Assembly: GCF_024343615.1 (NCBI RefSeq)
Contig: NZ_RJUB01000144.1
Coordinates: 311 to 64,310, forward strand
Length of the DNA: 64,000 bases
Origin: Ferruginibacter sp. HRS2-29
GTDB lineage: Bacteria; Bacteroidota; Bacteroidia; Chitinophagales; Chitinophagaceae
Reading direction: 5' to 3'
Part shown: in pieces, positions 1 to 61,236 of the stretch
How positions within the stretch are numbered: the first letter of the stretch is position 1
Layout: each line of letters opens with the position of its first letter
Translations under genes and position numbers: made by a program
The notes under the pieces: generated by a model
Database searches by the model: none
Told to the model about the DNA's origin: nothing
The model's input: only the letters and a program-made list of their open reading frames with translations

Positions 1-275
1 ATTACGAATTACGAATTACGAATTACGAATTACGAATTACGAATTACGAATTACGAATTACGAATTACGAATTACGAATTACGAATTACGAATTACGAAT
101 TACGAATTACGAATTACGAATTACGAATTACGAATTACGAATTACGAATTACGAATTACGAATTACGAATTACGAATTAATTTTTAGCGCCGCAAGGTAA
201 TTAGATTCCAAAGAAATTAATAAATACCAAACTGAACAAACCCATTCGTAATTCGTAATTGCCCATTTTTAATTG
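1..275. repeat. AATTACG heptamer array with inverted right arm
   Basis: Positions 1-178 are an essentially perfect tandem array of the 7-bp word AATTACG, about 25 copies, cut off by the window edge so the true length is unknown. A spacer of about 64 bp follows. Then come inverted copies of the word (TTCGTAATTCGTAATT, about 245-260) and degenerate heptads up to the pdxA stop codon at 278. The whole forms a long potential stem-loop. The spacer begins like that of the element at 57814-57946, so the two belong to one family. The function is unknown; it may act as a terminator for pdxA. Confidence 0.9.
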
Positions 276-7021: not shown

Positions 7022-7080
7022 GGTGGTGAATGGTGAAACATTCGAAGGTCTTCAGCTTTTCGAATAAATAATTACAACAA

Positions 7081-7110
7081 AAGGGGTGAAATTTTTTTCA
7101 CCCCTTTTTC
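7081..7110 (+). terminator. Rho-independent terminator of the M14 gene
   Basis: AAGGGGTG is paired with CACCCCTT around a short A/T loop, followed by a T-rich tail. It lies 60 bp past the carboxypeptidase stop, inside the core of the heptamer element. Confidence 0.85.
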
Positions 7111-7124
7111 TTTTCAATATTAAG

Positions 7125-7132
7125 TAGGTTTG
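7125..7132 (+). promoter_or_regulatory. Candidate -7 box of rsmA
   Basis: TAGGTTTG matches the Bacteroidota -7 consensus TAnnTTTG exactly, 52 bp upstream of the rsmA ATG. The -33 region is only T-rich, with no clean TTTG. Confidence 0.5.
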
Positions 7133-7184
7133 CATAACTATTAAAGTTCAAAGGTTTCACCATTCACTATTCACCATTCACTTC

Positions 7185-8801: not shown

Positions 8802-8857
8802 TTGTTGCATGCCGGATGTTAGTTGTTAGAAGTTTATTCGGCAGCAGGAAGCCGGTC

Positions 8858-8930
8858 GTCTGTTGTCTGTTGTCTGTCGTCAGTTGTCTGTCGTCTGCCG
8901 TCTGTCGTCTGTCGTCTGTGGTCTGTGGTC
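8858..8930. repeat. GTCTGTC heptamer array upstream of icmF
   Basis: Ten consecutive 7-bp units, variants of GTCTGTC/GTCTGTT/GTCTGTG with one GTCAGTT and one GTCTGCC, fill 8858-8930. No clear inverted arm is visible here, although weak GTTGTTA heptads occur at about 8818-8835. The array ends 9 bp before the icmF -7 box, so it covers the -33 region. The repeat-number differences typical of such arrays could alter promoter spacing. Confidence 0.85.
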
Positions 8931-8939
8931 TTTTTTCTG

Positions 8940-20560: not shown

Positions 20561-21786
20561 TGAAACCATCAGAGATCTCCATACTGGATTATACCTATGA
20601 CCTGCCGGATGACAGGGTCGCATTGCACCCGCTCGAACAAAGGGATGCGTCTAAATTACTCAGTTATAAAAAAGGAAAAATATCAGAAGATGTATTTTCC
20701 AACATCGGTGATCATTTACCCGAAGGGTGCCTGCTTGTTTTCAACAATACCAAAGTGATCAATGCACGCATCAGTTTTTTTAAAAGTACGGGGGCCCGTA
20801 TCGAGGTGTTTTGCCTGGAGCCTTACGAAAGTGTAAATGAGTACGTTACGGTGATGAGTAAAACGGGAAGTGTGAAATGGAAATGTTTTGTCGGCGGTGC
20901 CGCAAAGTGGAAAGAAGAGCGTATTCAAAAAGATATTGTTGTCAATGGAAAGCCTGTTTCACTTTATGCAGCCAGGTCTGGAAAGGAAGGAGAGGCTTAT
21001 ATTGTAGAATTTAGCTGGGAACCGGCAGATATCAGCTTTGCTGCCATTTTACAATCAGCCGGTAATGTGCCATTGCCGCCTTATATCAAACGTACCACCG
21101 ATGACGAGGATGTATCCCGCTACCAGACCATCTTTGCGGAGCATGAAGGATCCGTGGCGGCGCCTACGGCAGGGATTCATTTCACCGAAAGTATTTTTGA
21201 AAAATTAACAGCAAAAAGCATTCAGCGGTTGTTTGTTACGCTGCATGTGGGTGCCGGTACATTCAAGCCGGTAAAAGCCGAAAAGATGGAAGGGCATGAA
21301 ATGCATGCGGAATATATCGATGTGAGCAGGGGAGCTATTGAAGAATTGTTGTGTTACGAAACTGTAGCTGCTGTTGGTACCACATCCTTGCGCACGCTCG
21401 AATCTTTGTACTGGCTTGGCGTGAAAGCCTCACTGGATCCTTCAGCAAAACAACTCGACATCAGACAATGGGATGTATATGAACCTCGCCTGCGGGATAT
21501 GGCATTGCCGGCCAAAGACGCACTTACTGCTTTACTCAGCTGGATGGAGGAAAACGGGCAGTCAAACATTTTTACCCGTACACAATTGCTGATCGCACCG
21601 GGATATCGCTTCCGGATTGTCAAAATACTCATTACTAATTTTCATCAGCCACAGTCCACATTACTGTTACTCGTAGCGGCGGCCATCGGCGATGACTGGA
21701 AAAAAATGTATGCGTATGCAATGGAGAATGGGTTCAGGTTTTTGAGTTATGGGGATGGGAACGTGATTGAAGTCAATGGTGAATAG
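20560..21786 (+). CDS. queA: S-adenosylmethionine:tRNA ribosyltransferase-isomerase QueA
   Basis: Transfers and isomerises the ribose of SAM onto 7-aminomethyl-7-deazaguanine in tRNA, giving epoxyqueuosine. Seen: YDLPDDRVALHPLEQRDASKLL, the FNNTKVINARI block, TAGIHFTESIFEKL, HVGAGTFKPVK and NFHQPQSTLLLLVAA near the C-terminus, all family landmarks. The ATG at 20560 overlaps the hydrolase stop and gives 408 residues; a longer in-frame extension upstream lies inside the hydrolase and is not needed. The last residues (VNGE) and the stop are encoded by the GGTGAAT heptamer element. Confidence 0.95.
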   Translation: MKPSEISILDYTYDLPDDRVALHPLEQRDASKLLSYKKGKISEDVFSNIGDHLPEGCLLVFNNTKVINARISFFKSTGARIEVFCLEPYESVNEYVTVMSKTGSVKWKCFVGGAAKWKEERIQKDIVVNGKPVSLYAARSGKEGEAYIVEFSWEPADISFAAILQSAGNVPLPPYIKRTTDDEDVSRYQTIFAEHEGSVAAPTAGIHFTESIFEKLTAKSIQRLFVTLHVGAGTFKPVKAEKMEGHEMHAEYIDVSRGAIEELLCYETVAAVGTTSLRTLESLYWLGVKASLDPSAKQLDIRQWDVYEPRLRDMALPAKDALTALLSWMEENGQSNIFTRTQLLIAPGYRFRIVKILITNFHQPQSTLLLLVAAAIGDDWKKMYAYAMENGFRFLSYGDGNVIEVNGE

Positions 21787-22020
21787 TGAATGGTGAATGG
21801 TGAATGGTGAAATCTTCGGGGCATGTAAATTAGCTTGAATTTTATGCAATCAGGAATTTTTTAGATAACAAAAAGCGCAATCATTTCGATTGCGCTTTTT
21901 GTTATACCAGTATTAAAAACTTCTGTAAATAAAAACTTGATTTAAAAACAACCTTCGAAGGTTTCACTATTCACTATTCACTATTCACTATTCACTATTC
22001 ACTATTCACCATTCACTTAC
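21777..22020. repeat. GGTGAAT heptamer element between queA and L,D-transpeptidase
   Basis: The left arm (21777-21812) has five heptads of GGTGAAT/AGTGAAT and contains the queA stop codon. The right arm (about 21951-22018) has eight heptads of the reverse complement (ACTATTC/ACCATTC) and ends 8 bp before the transpeptidase stop. Inner ends resemble those of 7022-7184 (GTGAAA..CTTCG and CTTCGAAGGTTTCAC). A strong terminator sits in the middle. The arms differ in copy number. Confidence 0.9.
21867..21903. terminator. Bidirectional terminator between convergent genes
   Basis: AACAAAAAGCGCAATC is paired with GATTGCGCTTTTTGTT around ATTTC, an almost perfect 16-bp stem with U-tracts on both strands. 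It serves queA and the leftward L,D-transpeptidase gene. Confidence 0.92.
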
Positions 22021-43344: not shown

Positions 43345-43432
43345 TAACGTTTTCGATCGAAAGGACTATCGATAATTTATTACAGTTTTCAGGGGAAAAC
43401 ATTATCCATTATCCATTCTCTCATTATCCATT
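43329..43432. repeat. GGATAAT heptamer element between GNAT and lutB
   Basis: The left arm ATAATGGATAATTGATAAC (from 43330) contains the GNAT stop codon. The right arm has ATTATCCATTATCCATT from 43401 and a second stretch at 43420-43432. Inner ends pair as GTTTTC/GAAAAC. The core of about 52 bp resembles that of the element at 52099-52222. The right arm runs into the lutB -7 box. Confidence 0.88.
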
Positions 43433-43439
43433 ACTTTTG
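43432..43439 (+). promoter_or_regulatory. Candidate -7 box of lutB
   Basis: TACTTTTG matches TAnnTTTG exactly, 20 bp upstream of the lutB ATG. Its first bases are the last bases of the heptamer arm. Confidence 0.5.
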
Positions 43440-51279: not shown

Positions 51280-52101
51280 ATGAAAAATACTTTCCTGTTC
51301 ATCGCTTCCTGTACCATGTTGTTTTTCGCCTGCGCAAAAAATCCCTATTCGGCTACCAATAAAGTGTACAGGAAAAAAGCCAGTGAATATGCGAAGAACA
51401 TCAGGTCGCAGCCGAAAGACTCTGTGGTGGCTGATTCGCTGAAATTGCCGCCATACTGGGCAGGCACCACCAATTTCGGGATGCGCAAACCCAATATGGT
51501 GATCATACATCATACGGCTCAAAACAGCTGTGAGCAAACGCTGCAGACTTTTACGCTCGAACGCACGCAGGTGAGCGCACATTATGTGATCTGCAAGGAT
51601 GGTACATTACATCATATGCTCAACGATTACCTGAGAGCATGGCATGCAGGTTCGGCAAAATGGGGCAGCAATACAGATGTCAACTCCTCGTCCATTGGTA
51701 TAGAAATAGACAATAATGGAATAGATACTTTTTCTGCTGCGCAACTCAATACGCTGATGGGCCTGCTGGCAACTTTGAAAAAAACTTACGGCATTCCCGC
51801 GATGAATTTCATCGGCCACGGCGATATTGCCCCCACACGCAAGAACGACCCTAATGTGACTTTTCCCTGGAAGAAGCTGGCTGATAAGGGATTCGGGCTC
51901 TGGTATTCAGATACAACAGGCATGGTTGTTCCACCGGATTTCAACAGCGTCTATGCGTTACGGGTAGTAGGGTATGATGTTTCAAAATTACCTTCGGCCA
52001 TACAATCTTTTCGCAGGCATTTTATTGGGGAAGAAAAAGCAGGGGAGTTGAGTGAAGCAGAGAGGAAGGTTTTGTATTCTTTGGTGCAGAAATACTTATA
52101 A
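51280..52101 (+). CDS. N-acetylmuramoyl-L-alanine amidase lipoprotein
   Basis: 273-residue peptidoglycan amidase (Amidase_2/PGRP fold). The ATG at 51280 begins a lipoprotein signal (SCTMLFFAC lipobox). The catalytic domain spans about 70-215: first zinc ligand VIIHHTAQNS, VSAHYVICKDG, NSSSIGIEIDNNG, then FIGHGDIAPTRKNDP with the second histidine. The tail of about 60 residues (VVGYDVSKLPSAIQSFRRHF) resembles the helical end found in family members. It probably cleaves muropeptides in the periplasm. It converges on the phosphoesterase gene across a heptamer element. Confidence 0.9.
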   Translation: MKNTFLFIASCTMLFFACAKNPYSATNKVYRKKASEYAKNIRSQPKDSVVADSLKLPPYWAGTTNFGMRKPNMVIIHHTAQNSCEQTLQTFTLERTQVSAHYVICKDGTLHHMLNDYLRAWHAGSAKWGSNTDVNSSSIGIEIDNNGIDTFSAAQLNTLMGLLATLKKTYGIPAMNFIGHGDIAPTRKNDPNVTFPWKKLADKGFGLWYSDTTGMVVPPDFNSVYALRVVGYDVSKLPSAIQSFRRHFIGEEKAGELSEAERKVLYSLVQKYL

Positions 52102-52222
52102 TTAATGGATAATTGATAATGGATAATGGATAATGTATTCTTTCAAGCAGGAAATTGTTTCATTATTTAACAGGCTACAGGCTGAAGATATTATCCATTA
52201 TCCATTATCAATTATCCATTAC
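52099..52222. repeat. GGATAAT heptamer element between amidase and phosphoesterase
   Basis: The left arm (52103-52140) reads TAATGGATAATTGATAATG and further GGATAAT heptads, ending GTATTC. The right arm (52183-52222) is its reverse complement with the same order of variants, including the single TTGATAA unit at the matching position, giving a nearly perfect stem of about 38 bp around a core of about 42 bp. The right arm contains the phosphoesterase stop and its last codons (SNG). The core resembles that of 43329-43432. Confidence 0.92.
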
Positions 52223-57034: not shown

Positions 57035-57042
57035 CATTTTTG
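57035..57042 (+). promoter_or_regulatory. Candidate -7 box of pcrB
   Basis: CATTTTTG fits nAnnTTTG and contains the TTG at 57040. Transcription would begin a few bases downstream, which argues against that TTG as start codon and for the TTG at 57067. Confidence 0.4.
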
Positions 57043-57066
57043 CAGGAAACCAAACACCACTTCAAT

Positions 57067-57819
57067 TTGAAAAATATTTATCATTCATTGAGCGAAAGGA
57101 AACAGCAGGGGAGAAAATCTTTTGCCGTACTGATCGACCCTGATAAAGTGAATGATGAGAGCATGGAGCAGCTGATCGAACTGGCGGCAGATGCCAGGGT
57201 CGACTACTTTTTCGTGGGTGGAAGCCTGGTTATTTCAAGTTATCTCGACGAATGTGTTCAGCTGATAAAAAAGCGTTGTAATATTCCCGTGATCCTGTTC
57301 CCCGGTAGTCCTTCCCAAGTGAGCAAATATGCCGATGCGTTATTATACCTGTCGCTGATCAGCGGCCGTAACCCGGAATTACTGATAGGCCAGCACGTGG
57401 TAAGCGCACCTGCGGTGAAAAAAAGCGGGTTGGAGATCATGCCAACCGGTTATATGGTGATCGATGGAGGCGCTCCCACCACCGTTTCTTACATCAGTAA
57501 TGCTTCTCCGTTACCTTCCGATAAAAACGAAATAGCGATGTGTACTGCTATGGCAGGTGAAATGCTGGGTATGCGCCTCATCTACATGGATGCGGGCAGT
57601 GGTGCCAGAAGGGCTATTTCTGAAAATATGATCGAGAAGGTAGCCTCCTGCATCGATATTCCGCTGATCGTTGGTGGCGGAATCACTACTGCCGAAAAGG
57701 CTTACCTGAACTGCAAAGCCGGTGCTGACGTGATTGTAGTAGGTAATGCGATTGAGAAGGATCCTATGCTGATAAAGGAGATCGCTGCGGCGATACACAG
57801 CGTACCGGTAATCAATTAA
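57067..57819 (+). CDS. pcrB: Heptaprenylglyceryl/geranylgeranylglyceryl phosphate synthase (PcrB/GGGPS)
   Basis: 250-residue TIM-barrel prenyltransferase that joins a polyprenyl diphosphate to sn-glycerol-1-phosphate. Seen: FAVLIDPDKV near the N-terminus, DYFFVGGSLVISSY, VILFPGSPSQVSKYADALLYLSL, IYMDAGSGA and the phosphate-binding LIVGGGITT and DVIVVGNAIEKD. No ATG is available at the 5' end. TTG at 57067 (reading MKNIYHSLSERK) fits the family start; TTG at 57040 overlaps the -7 box. Bacterial members occur widely in Bacteroidota but their product there is little studied. The gene ends in the AATTACG heptamer element. Confidence 0.9.
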   Translation: MKNIYHSLSERKQQGRKSFAVLIDPDKVNDESMEQLIELAADARVDYFFVGGSLVISSYLDECVQLIKKRCNIPVILFPGSPSQVSKYADALLYLSLISGRNPELLIGQHVVSAPAVKKSGLEIMPTGYMVIDGGAPTTVSYISNASPLPSDKNEIAMCTAMAGEMLGMRLIYMDAGSGARRAISENMIEKVASCIDIPLIVGGGITTAEKAYLNCKAGADVIVVGNAIEKDPMLIKEIAAAIHSVPVIN

Positions 57820-57946
57820 AAATTACGAATTACGAATTACGAATTGAATTTTTTGCGCTGCAAGATATTTACAAAATTTCCGGAAACATTTAATTACGGT
57901 TAGAATGAACCATTCGTAATCCGTAATTATTCATTCGTAATTATTG
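57814..57946. repeat. AATTACG heptamer element between pcrB and M28 peptidase
   Basis: The left arm (57814-57846) contains the pcrB stop and about three AATTACG heptads. The right arm (57911-57946) has the inverted words ATTCGTA/ATCCGTA and contains the peptidase stop codon. The core is 64 bp long, as in the element at 1-275, and its first 20 bases match that core at 17 positions (AATTTTTTGCGCTGCAAGAT against AATTTTTAGCGCCGCAAGGT). It therefore belongs to the same dispersed family. Confidence 0.92.
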
Positions 57947-59218
57947 CTTCTCCACCCGTGCCGGCGTCTCCTTTCCACTGATGATCCCCTTGCTGCTGAT
58001 AGCGATCGCTTTGATGATCTCCGCCATGTTAATCATATCGAGTGTTTCCACTTCATCTTCCTGGGTGTGATAGAATTTCTCTGTGTCCATTTTGGAAGTG
58101 CTGATGGTATGTGCAGGTACGCCCAAAGCCGCCAGGGTAGCATTGTCGGAGCGATAGAATAATTGTTGCTTCGGATACGGATCAGGCTCGAATTTAAAAT
58201 TGCTGCCTGCCAAATTACCCTGTAATATTTTTCCGAAATCCGATTTGTCAAACCCGGTGATGTACGCACTGTTCTTGCCCCATTGGCTTTCGGTACCGAT
58301 CATTTCGATGTTGAACATCGCGACAGCCTTATCCGCATCAATCTGTTGGGAAAAATATTGTGAACCAAAACCGCCTGATTCTTCCGCGGTGAATGCTACA
58401 AATATTAATGTGCGCTCATTGTTTTTAAGCTTGCTGAAATAATTGGCCAGCATGATCACTGCAGTGGTTCCGGCTGCATCGTCGTTGGCGCCGTTGTAGA
58501 TGGAATCGCCGGCGGCATTGGGTTTGCCGATGCCAAGATGATCGTAATGCCCTGAAAATATGACTACTTCTTCAGGTTTTGTTTTACCTGGTAAAACACC
58601 CACCACATTTGCAAGGGAAGAAGTAGTTATTTTGTGGCGGACAGTAAAACTGAATGTTTTAGGCGCTTCATCAGTCAGCACAAAAATAACCGGCGCTTTG
58701 GTTTCAAAAGTTTCGCCTTTGAGGCGTTTGAGGCGCAGGAAATTTTTAGCATAGCTGCTTCCAACAAAAATGACGGCAGGGTGATTTTTTTGAATGGCTT
58801 CGTATCCTGCTTTGACCAGGTTTAGACCCGAATCCAATACCAGTTGTATGTAACCCGATCTTTCATTGATATCAAGGAGAGAATCTCCGGTAACCGCAAT
58901 GATATTTTCCGGCAATACTGCCTGGTTATTTAGTGTTCCGCTTGCGGAAATAAGGGTCGCTTTCTGCATGGTGAAAGGCTGACGGTAACTGGTAAGCCCG
59001 TTGAGATATTTCAGCCCGCTCTTTTTAAATTCCGAAGCGATGAAATCTGCAGCCTTATCTATGGATGGCGTGAATGGTTTCCTGCCCTGCATTTCATCAG
59101 AAGCGAGGGTACGTTCAATCCTCTCCACTTCTTTCGCATTGATAAGTTTATCAATATTTTGAGCAAACGAAAAATTTGCAATAGTGAGCAAGGCTCCGGC
59201 AAGTAAAAAACCTTTCAT
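57941..59218 (-). CDS. Secreted M28 family zinc aminopeptidase
   Basis: 425-residue exported metallopeptidase, signal peptide 1-19 (ending SFAQ). A PA-domain-like insert spans about 100-200. The catalytic M28 region follows: FSGHYDHLG (first ligand), GANDDAAGTTAV (bridging aspartate), FTAEESGGFGS (catalytic and ligand glutamates), then MFNIEMIGT and FYHTQEDEVETLD with the last histidine. It releases N-terminal residues from peptides. It lies 24 bp after the LytTR regulator gene and is probably transcribed with that two-component pair. Confidence 0.92.
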   Translation of the reverse strand: MKGFLLAGALLTIANFSFAQNIDKLINAKEVERIERTLASDEMQGRKPFTPSIDKAADFIASEFKKSGLKYLNGLTSYRQPFTMQKATLISASGTLNNQAVLPENIIAVTGDSLLDINERSGYIQLVLDSGLNLVKAGYEAIQKNHPAVIFVGSSYAKNFLRLKRLKGETFETKAPVIFVLTDEAPKTFSFTVRHKITTSSLANVVGVLPGKTKPEEVVIFSGHYDHLGIGKPNAAGDSIYNGANDDAAGTTAVIMLANYFSKLKNNERTLIFVAFTAEESGGFGSQYFSQQIDADKAVAMFNIEMIGTESQWGKNSAYITGFDKSDFGKILQGNLAGSNFKFEPDPYPKQQLFYRSDNATLAALGVPAHTISTSKMDTEKFYHTQEDEVETLDMINMAEIIKAIAISSKGIISGKETPARVEKQ

Positions 59219-61148: not shown

Positions 61149-61236
61149 AGTTAGGAGTGATGAGTGATGGAATATAAGTTAACACTATTCTATAGCTTAT
61201 AACTCATAACCCATAACTTATAACTTATAACTCATT
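61149..61236. repeat. TTATAAC heptamer element upstream of ruvB
   Basis: The right array (61194-61236) has six 7-bp words TTATAAC/TCATAAC/CCATAAC and runs to 12 bp before the ruvB ATG. The left side (61149-61170) has AGTTAGG AGTGATG AGTGATG, partly complementary to the right array. A -7-like TATTTTTA follows the array just before the start codon. Confidence 0.75.

Follow-up and report, generated by a model that had tools for sequence, protein, structure and literature searches.

Palindromes with arms of tandem heptamers of many sequences in the intergenic DNA of Ferruginibacter sp. HRS2-29

Palindromes that lie between convergent genes, with a purine-rich 5′ arm and a pyrimidine-rich 3′ arm, are familiar as bidirectional intrinsic terminators. 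Another class of palindrome, the REPIN, is the subject of Bertels and Rainey (2011, PMC3116915). As far as the accessible text of that paper goes, REPINs possess two inverted arms and a variable spacer, are extragenic and dispersed, and form hairpins. Tandem arrays of 7-bp units have been described in their own right. The TAACTGA heptamer repeats of Beggiatoaceae, cyanobacteria and some Bacteroidetes (MacGregor 2015, PMC4679880) are intergenic arrays near gene borders; the accessible part of that work is concerned chiefly with direct repeats of a single heptamer that precede start codons, counts one inverted case in its main genome, and also records that Gramella and A. sublithincola have arrays of other heptamers and that relatives without repeats have shorter spacers. 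The same text cites Mrazek (2007) on long simple sequence repeats of heptanucleotides, in which heptamers are the commonest longer repeat unit, and heptamer-derived satellites in bacteria are mentioned in the accessible text of PMC6749651. Heptamer direct repeats, including those of Bacteroidetes, and REPINs are therefore already known, and for heptad-armed palindromes we found no account: our searches of the open literature, which included one with six heptamer strings, yielded none from Bacteroidota.

The elements that we describe here from Ferruginibacter sp. HRS2-29 share part of their character with each of these systems. Like the TAACTGA arrays, as portrayed in the accessible text, they are intergenic 7-bp tandem arrays near gene borders; unlike them, they use about 30 heptamers, have inverted, paired arms and are enriched between convergent gene ends. 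No TAACTGA-unit array is among the units listed in our sample, in which array density is highest between convergent genes. They differ from the repeats of Mrazek (2007), as cited in PMC4679880, in that the arrays are short and occur as matched inverted pairs, and from REPINs, judged by the accessible text of PMC3116915, in that their arms are tandem heptads of many sequences for which we found no link to a RAYT. With bidirectional intrinsic terminators they have in common the palindrome between convergent genes and its purine-rich 5′ and pyrimidine-rich 3′ arms; the differences are a stem of repeated heptads and an often long core, which in some cases holds a separate terminator-like hairpin.

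Our starting point was a window, by which we mean the whole 64,000-nt stretch of DNA analysed, in which AATTACG occurs 41 times against 10.6 expected. A preliminary description had reported two AATTACG elements 57 kb apart, and both are real, with arms and cores that could be located in each. The first (1-260) adjoins a PdxA-family gene (278-1378, − strand; Pfam PF04166, E=5.4e-111). It consists of a left arm at 1-179 (+ strand), for which the count of 25.6 AATTACG copies is unreliable because the array is broken by runs of N, a core of 64 bp at 180-243 and a right arm of reverse heptads at 244-260 (− strand). The left arm starts at a scaffold gap, 20 N immediately preceding base 1 of the window, and the same AATTACG array recurs in N-separated pieces. 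Long perfect AATTACG arrays (window position 1; L198 1-330; L025 6171-6592) border on runs of N or lie close to the ends of contigs, and for this reason long copy numbers are unreliable in this assembly. The second element (57821-57942) occupies the entire spacer between convergent genes for a PcrB-family protein (57040-57819, + strand; Pfam PF01884, E=1.6e-48) and an M28 peptidase (57941-59218, − strand; Pfam PF04389, E=4.8e-37). Its left arm of 3.6 AATTACG copies (57821-57845, + strand) begins 1 nt past the pcrB stop codon (57817-57819), its core of 66 bp (57846-57911) resembles 180-243, and its right arm (57912-57942, − strand) is a set of degenerate reverse heptads, exact at 57922-57928 and 57936-57942, that overlaps the stop codon of the peptidase gene (57941-57943). 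The window gave no match to Rfam at the gathering threshold.

The AATTACG pair belongs to a large class of intergenic palindromes with heptad arms of many sequences. In a sample of 773,038 non-N bases from the assembly (5.07 Mb in 161 contigs) we counted 139 arrays of period 7 with a length of at least 17 nt, whereas each of the periods 4-6 and 8-12 yielded 0 to 14. Six of the 139 lie inside called genes, and the intergenic arrays are a median of 15 nt from the nearest gene edge (n=121). Their units comprise 30 distinct heptamers, among them AATTACG, AATTAAG, TAATGGA, ATGTATG, GTGAATR, GTCAATR and GACGACM; the arrays have a median length of just 2.7 copies, and related heptamer variants are intermingled within arms. 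In the inverted repeats of the genome, lags of 7 and 14 are prominent in convergent, tandem and divergent spacers alike. Two long single arms, at L021:4074-4166 and L021:628-682, have no clear right partner, and along them the variants shift, from ATGTATG to GTGTGAT and from GTGAATG to GTCAATG, respectively.

This repertoire is compatible with an origin in place that requires no mobility, in which slippage in 7-nt steps would build an array and template switching at a quasi-palindrome would copy one arm into the other, so that each site evolves its own matched heptamers. DNA polymerase may be prone to seven-nucleotide slippage, and an earlier survey, as reported in PMC4679880, proposed polymerase slippage for heptamers generally. 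The occurrence of about 30 heptamers in one genome, the shortness of the arrays and the mixing of related variants all speak for such an origin, as does the matching of arms at the level of the heptamer group described below. Against it stand the presence of one heptamer at very many loci and the further observations on cores and orthologous sites given below, and we consider an origin in place possible but on the doubtful side. For AATTACGAATTACG we counted 585 matches in the HRS2-29 genome and 0 for the reversed-pattern control, with 10 in the closest sibling genome and, among 35 congeners, 0 to 2 matches each, present in 2 of them.

The two arms of an element correspond to one another. In 32 of 35 two-arm elements both arms fall within a single heptamer group, a count that permutations put at 12.6 on average and 24 at most (0 of 20,000 reach the observed value). 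Arm complementarity summed over 78 array-bearing spacers is 1352, whereas 10,000 permutations averaged 878 and did not exceed 1068. Within a group, unit-by-unit matching of the arms was found in the mixed AATT group alone (0 of 20,000 permutations), a result that includes sub-family differences, and it was absent from three other groups (4,954, 12,442 and 8,891 of 20,000 permutations). The arms also have a prevailing polarity: left arms are rich in purines and right arms in pyrimidines, as seen in 103 of 121 arrays and, by majority, in 23 of the 30 heptamers; its direction is the same in all three gene arrangements. In other genomes this polarity is less marked: G261 shows it in 16 of 22 arrays, the sibling in 14 of 19, a set of 79 relatives in 7 of 10 and G154 in 3 of 3. 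A chance likeness in AT-rich intergenic DNA could draw on the fact that the cores are AT-rich and mostly unrelated; arm matching above every permutation, and reversed controls of 0 against 585 for the pattern above and of 0 against 172 for two-arm placements (several per locus), leave it a negligible probability.

The cores are a different matter from the arms. If the core is taken to run from where the left array ends up to the first ATTCG, it is 64 bp long in the first element, as had been described, and 66 bp in the pcrB/M28 element, so that the reported identity of length is approximate. The match of 17 of the first 20 core bases holds with a one-base offset, and the statement that the remainder has diverged proves too strong, since the whole cores align when gaps are allowed. 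Their gapped local alignment scores 22, a value reached in 0 of 5,000 dinucleotide shuffles (mean 10.1, maximum 19.5). When the first core is trimmed by one base, the score of the pair is 21, the highest among the 406 pairs of 29 real cores (median 9), by a thin margin over runner-up pairs at 20 and 19.5. A core motif, allowing at most three mismatches, occurs at seven places: window 180, two on C32, window 57.8 kb, C10:182212 and two on C122. The first match on C32 has the flank of window 180 and the second sits right at the contig end; the third locus, C10:182212, aligns with both reported cores. The two reported cores are probably homologous, and the common descent proposed for the pair is supported, for these two units, by core similarity and the third locus.

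Common descent of arm, core and arm is not the rule for the whole class. In the sample, core length among the 11 strict AATTACG/AATTACG elements takes the values 23, 45, 46, 50, 63, 64, 68, 72, 94, 212 and 234 bp and is thus not conserved across AATTACG loci, and most of the core sequences are unrelated to one another; cores of random length and sequence, which the preliminary description had named as the finding that would overturn its reading, are what these sampled elements display. A length-limited search of the genome for the two-arm pattern returned 172 placements (several per locus) against 0 for the reversed pattern; many of the cores are unrelated, and in the first 100 or so placements (about 20 loci) they range, by eye, from about 15 to 73 bp. 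Complementarity resides in the arms, and no more than three cores proved alignable. The recurrence of similar cores at separate loci nevertheless counts against the independent construction of each element in place.

Other similarities among cores were seen by eye. A nested inverted-repeat core of about 200 bp (GATCGCAGATT...GGGGATTGCACAGATT...) is common to L011:2662-2972, L014:3754-4014 and L019:1594-1925, and is flanked by AATTACG arms in L014 and L019 and by AATTAAG-type arms in L011. A longer phrase (about AATTCGTGTAATCCGC...AATTCGTGTAAT) is repeated in spacers beside heptad arms at L073:10021-10276 and L070:17100-17214. In the sampled elements, core edges look alike across different heptamer groups (about TTTCGGTTTG; about TCTTTCGGTTTGTAAAT); this common edge motif may be a real conserved part of the element, and may explain the near-equal scores of other core pairs.

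The closest relatives allow individual sites to be compared. By its PcrB protein, the window falls among Ferruginibacter-like Chitinophagaceae, and the closest named PcrB record, with 94% identity, comes from the metagenome-assembled 'Chitinophagales bacterium bin_231' (L079), whose genome (G059) is the sibling referred to above. Across 44 orthologous neighbouring gene pairs, a strict array is present in 13 pairs of HRS2-29 and in one, a different pair, of the sibling. At one site (window 52101-52211) the HRS2-29 palindrome has TAATGGA arms and measures 110 bp, and that of the sibling has ATGATCT arms and measures 107 bp; this is the single clear case among the 13 HRS2-29 array-bearing sites of palindromes with different heptamers at an orthologous position. 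In four congeners (L273, L274, L275, L279) the two genes are adjacent and the protein matches end 12-60 nt apart, which leaves little or no room for an element; at the remaining loci searched, the second gene was not found next to the first. To judge from these comparisons of sequence, palindromes with different heptamers would have been gained twice at this site, or gained once and then exchanged. The near absence of a spacer in the outgroups argues against an origin in place, yet these outgroups are too diverged to give the exact ends of the element, and no target-site duplication could be demonstrated. A second site, L023:6818, has AATTACG-type arms in both HRS2-29 and the sibling around different cores, an arrangement that favours an origin in place. 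At the other 11 HRS2-29 sites the sibling did not register as a lag-7 array, and in a few of them weak heptad-like traces are visible by eye (e.g. the right edges at window 21786, and at L024:9979).

The pcrB/M28 spacer itself varies among relatives: in the sibling it holds a terminator-like hairpin of the conventional kind and lacks heptads, and in some other Chitinophagaceae there are heptads of other sequence, e.g. GTGAGTG-type (L142, L146) or AAAGTCA (L154). Of 298 genomes of the order, 84 contain matches to a degenerate pattern, GTSARTR, and those with high counts are spread over several families. In HRS2-29 the pattern has 566 matches against 3 for the reversed control; elsewhere the control can be high (65 against 80 true matches in G305; 234 in G294 and 94 in G126, each with 0 true), and in such genomes the counts may reflect other heptads. 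Stretches of G261 and G154 contain arrays of other heptamers, e.g. GATGACA and GTGAGRC hairpins in G154. In 80 pcrB loci of relatives and 14 single stretches of other genomes, several of them very short, arrays are sparse, and a strong inverted repeat was found in 6 of 42 convergent spacers of relatives, compared with 36 of 70 in the HRS2-29 genome.

In HRS2-29 the elements are concentrated where genes converge. Arrays are borne by 29 of 105 convergent spacers and by 52 of 534 others (odds ratio 3.5, Fisher p=3.9e-6), and the enrichment persists when the sample is confined to 29 contig-tiling stretches (17 of 70 against 28 of 368, p=1.4e-4). Within the window, convergent sites carry the palindrome with TAATGGA-type arms (52102-52221; array runs 52115-52135 and 52190-52209) and one with GTGAATR-type arms (21775-22017; arms 21775-21811 and 21963-22017) that has a terminator-like hairpin in its core. 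Between co-directional genes lie a palindrome with GTGAATG-type arms (7022-7182), with a short left arm where the spacer begins, a terminator-like hairpin in the core and a right arm (7156-7182) directly before a start codon; a GTCGTCT-type array (8855-8931, − strand); and a right-type arm of CATTATC (43400-43433, − strand) for which a left arm is not clearly seen. An ATAACTC-type array (61199-61235, − strand) separates divergent genes.

Predicted RNA folding is strongest at the convergent positions. Relative to shuffled sequences, the median fold z of convergent spacers on the + strand is −8.9 with an array (n=26) and −4.7 without (n=36); on the − strand the gap is smaller (−6.2 and −4.9), and arrays bring a slight gain in tandem (−2.2, n=36, against −1.6, n=166) and divergent spacers (−2.4, n=10, against −1.4, n=55). 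The stable hairpin typical of intrinsic terminators at gene 3′ ends is present in the array-bearing convergent spacers (n=26). A conventional terminator is present in 7 of the 26 array-bearing convergent spacers and in 13 of the 36 that lack arrays, and we saw no mutual exclusion between the two, nor clear replacement of conventional terminators by the elements. Termination of transcription by the palindromes is a suggestion that rests on position and predicted fold, and the convergent enrichment could be mere tolerance.

If the palindromes are mobile, as we suppose, REPINs offer a precedent, being inverted doublets of REP sequences moved by a RAYT (Y1) transposase. The elements described here likewise have two inverted arms and a variable spacer, are extragenic and number in the hundreds, and the HRS2-29 genome contains three Y1_Tnp genes. 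Their arms, however, are heptad arrays of many sequences and not one conserved motif per class; no heptad palindrome lies within 260 bases on either side of the three Y1_Tnp genes, the closest arrays being at about 600 bases (L160) and about 900 bases (L159), with none in L161. Furthermore, Y1_Tnp is found in 223 of 298 genomes irrespective of arrays, and the array-rich genomes G249 and G335, with 30 and 111 GTSARTR matches, have no Y1_Tnp match. That the elements are REPINs is in our view very unlikely, and a search of HRS2-29 and the 298 genomes for Y1_Tnp did not support a RAYT as the mover. We found no mobilising enzyme and no transposase tied to the elements. Beside two of the RAYT-like Y1_Tnp genes, repeated short palindromes can be seen by eye (CGTTCCTACGGAACG, L159 1845-2105; CCATGGGTTGCTACCCATGG, L160 1241-1501); these look like ordinary REPs, not heptads.

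An account in terms of permissiveness would have loss of the palindrome-cleaving nuclease SbcCD allow long palindromes to build up by drift. The HRS2-29 genome has no SbcD above the family cut-off, and SbcD is present in 1 of 15 genomes with at least 50 GTSARTR-type matches against 97 of 283 others. Stratified by taxonomic family, however, the trend is weak, with results as extreme in 1,464 of 20,000 permutations at the threshold of 50, 3,525 at 20 and 3,829 at 10. Most genomes that lack SbcD have few or no GTSARTR-type arrays, the array-rich G318 has SbcD, and the pattern concerns one heptamer family only. As a permissive cause, loss of SbcD is thus suggested by the raw counts and not by the stratified ones, and we regard the explanation as improbable.

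We favour, tentatively and at a little below an even chance, the reading of these elements as a dispersed non-coding palindrome that is gained as a unit, whose arms change by 7-nt slippage and which acts as a bidirectional hairpin at gene ends. Each copy is a non-coding, intergenic succession of outer heptad arm, variable core and inverted heptad arm. Units of arm, core and arm would be delivered by a non-autonomous process resembling that of REPINs, or would stem from recombination among copies already present, after which the arms would lengthen and shorten in 7-nt steps through slippage during replication. With one unit repeated in both arms, the stem would remain paired whatever the register, and slippage would therefore be tolerated. 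Copies would survive best between convergent genes, where the hairpin could end or protect transcripts from both sides and no promoter would be harmed. In an extension that we think unlikely, the form would be inherited while the sequence is arbitrary: copying in 7-nt steps would rewrite both arms together, leaving a register-tolerant hairpin with an exchangeable heptamer and a fixed polarity of purine-rich 5′ and pyrimidine-rich 3′ arms.

So far, heptamer arrays have mostly been presented as direct repeats with no known purpose. If an array is often one arm of a palindrome, then heptamer arrays become slippage-tolerant hairpin stems at gene ends, and siblings that carry different heptamers at one site would offer a route to how the arms change together and to whether such hairpins set transcript ends in Bacteroidota.
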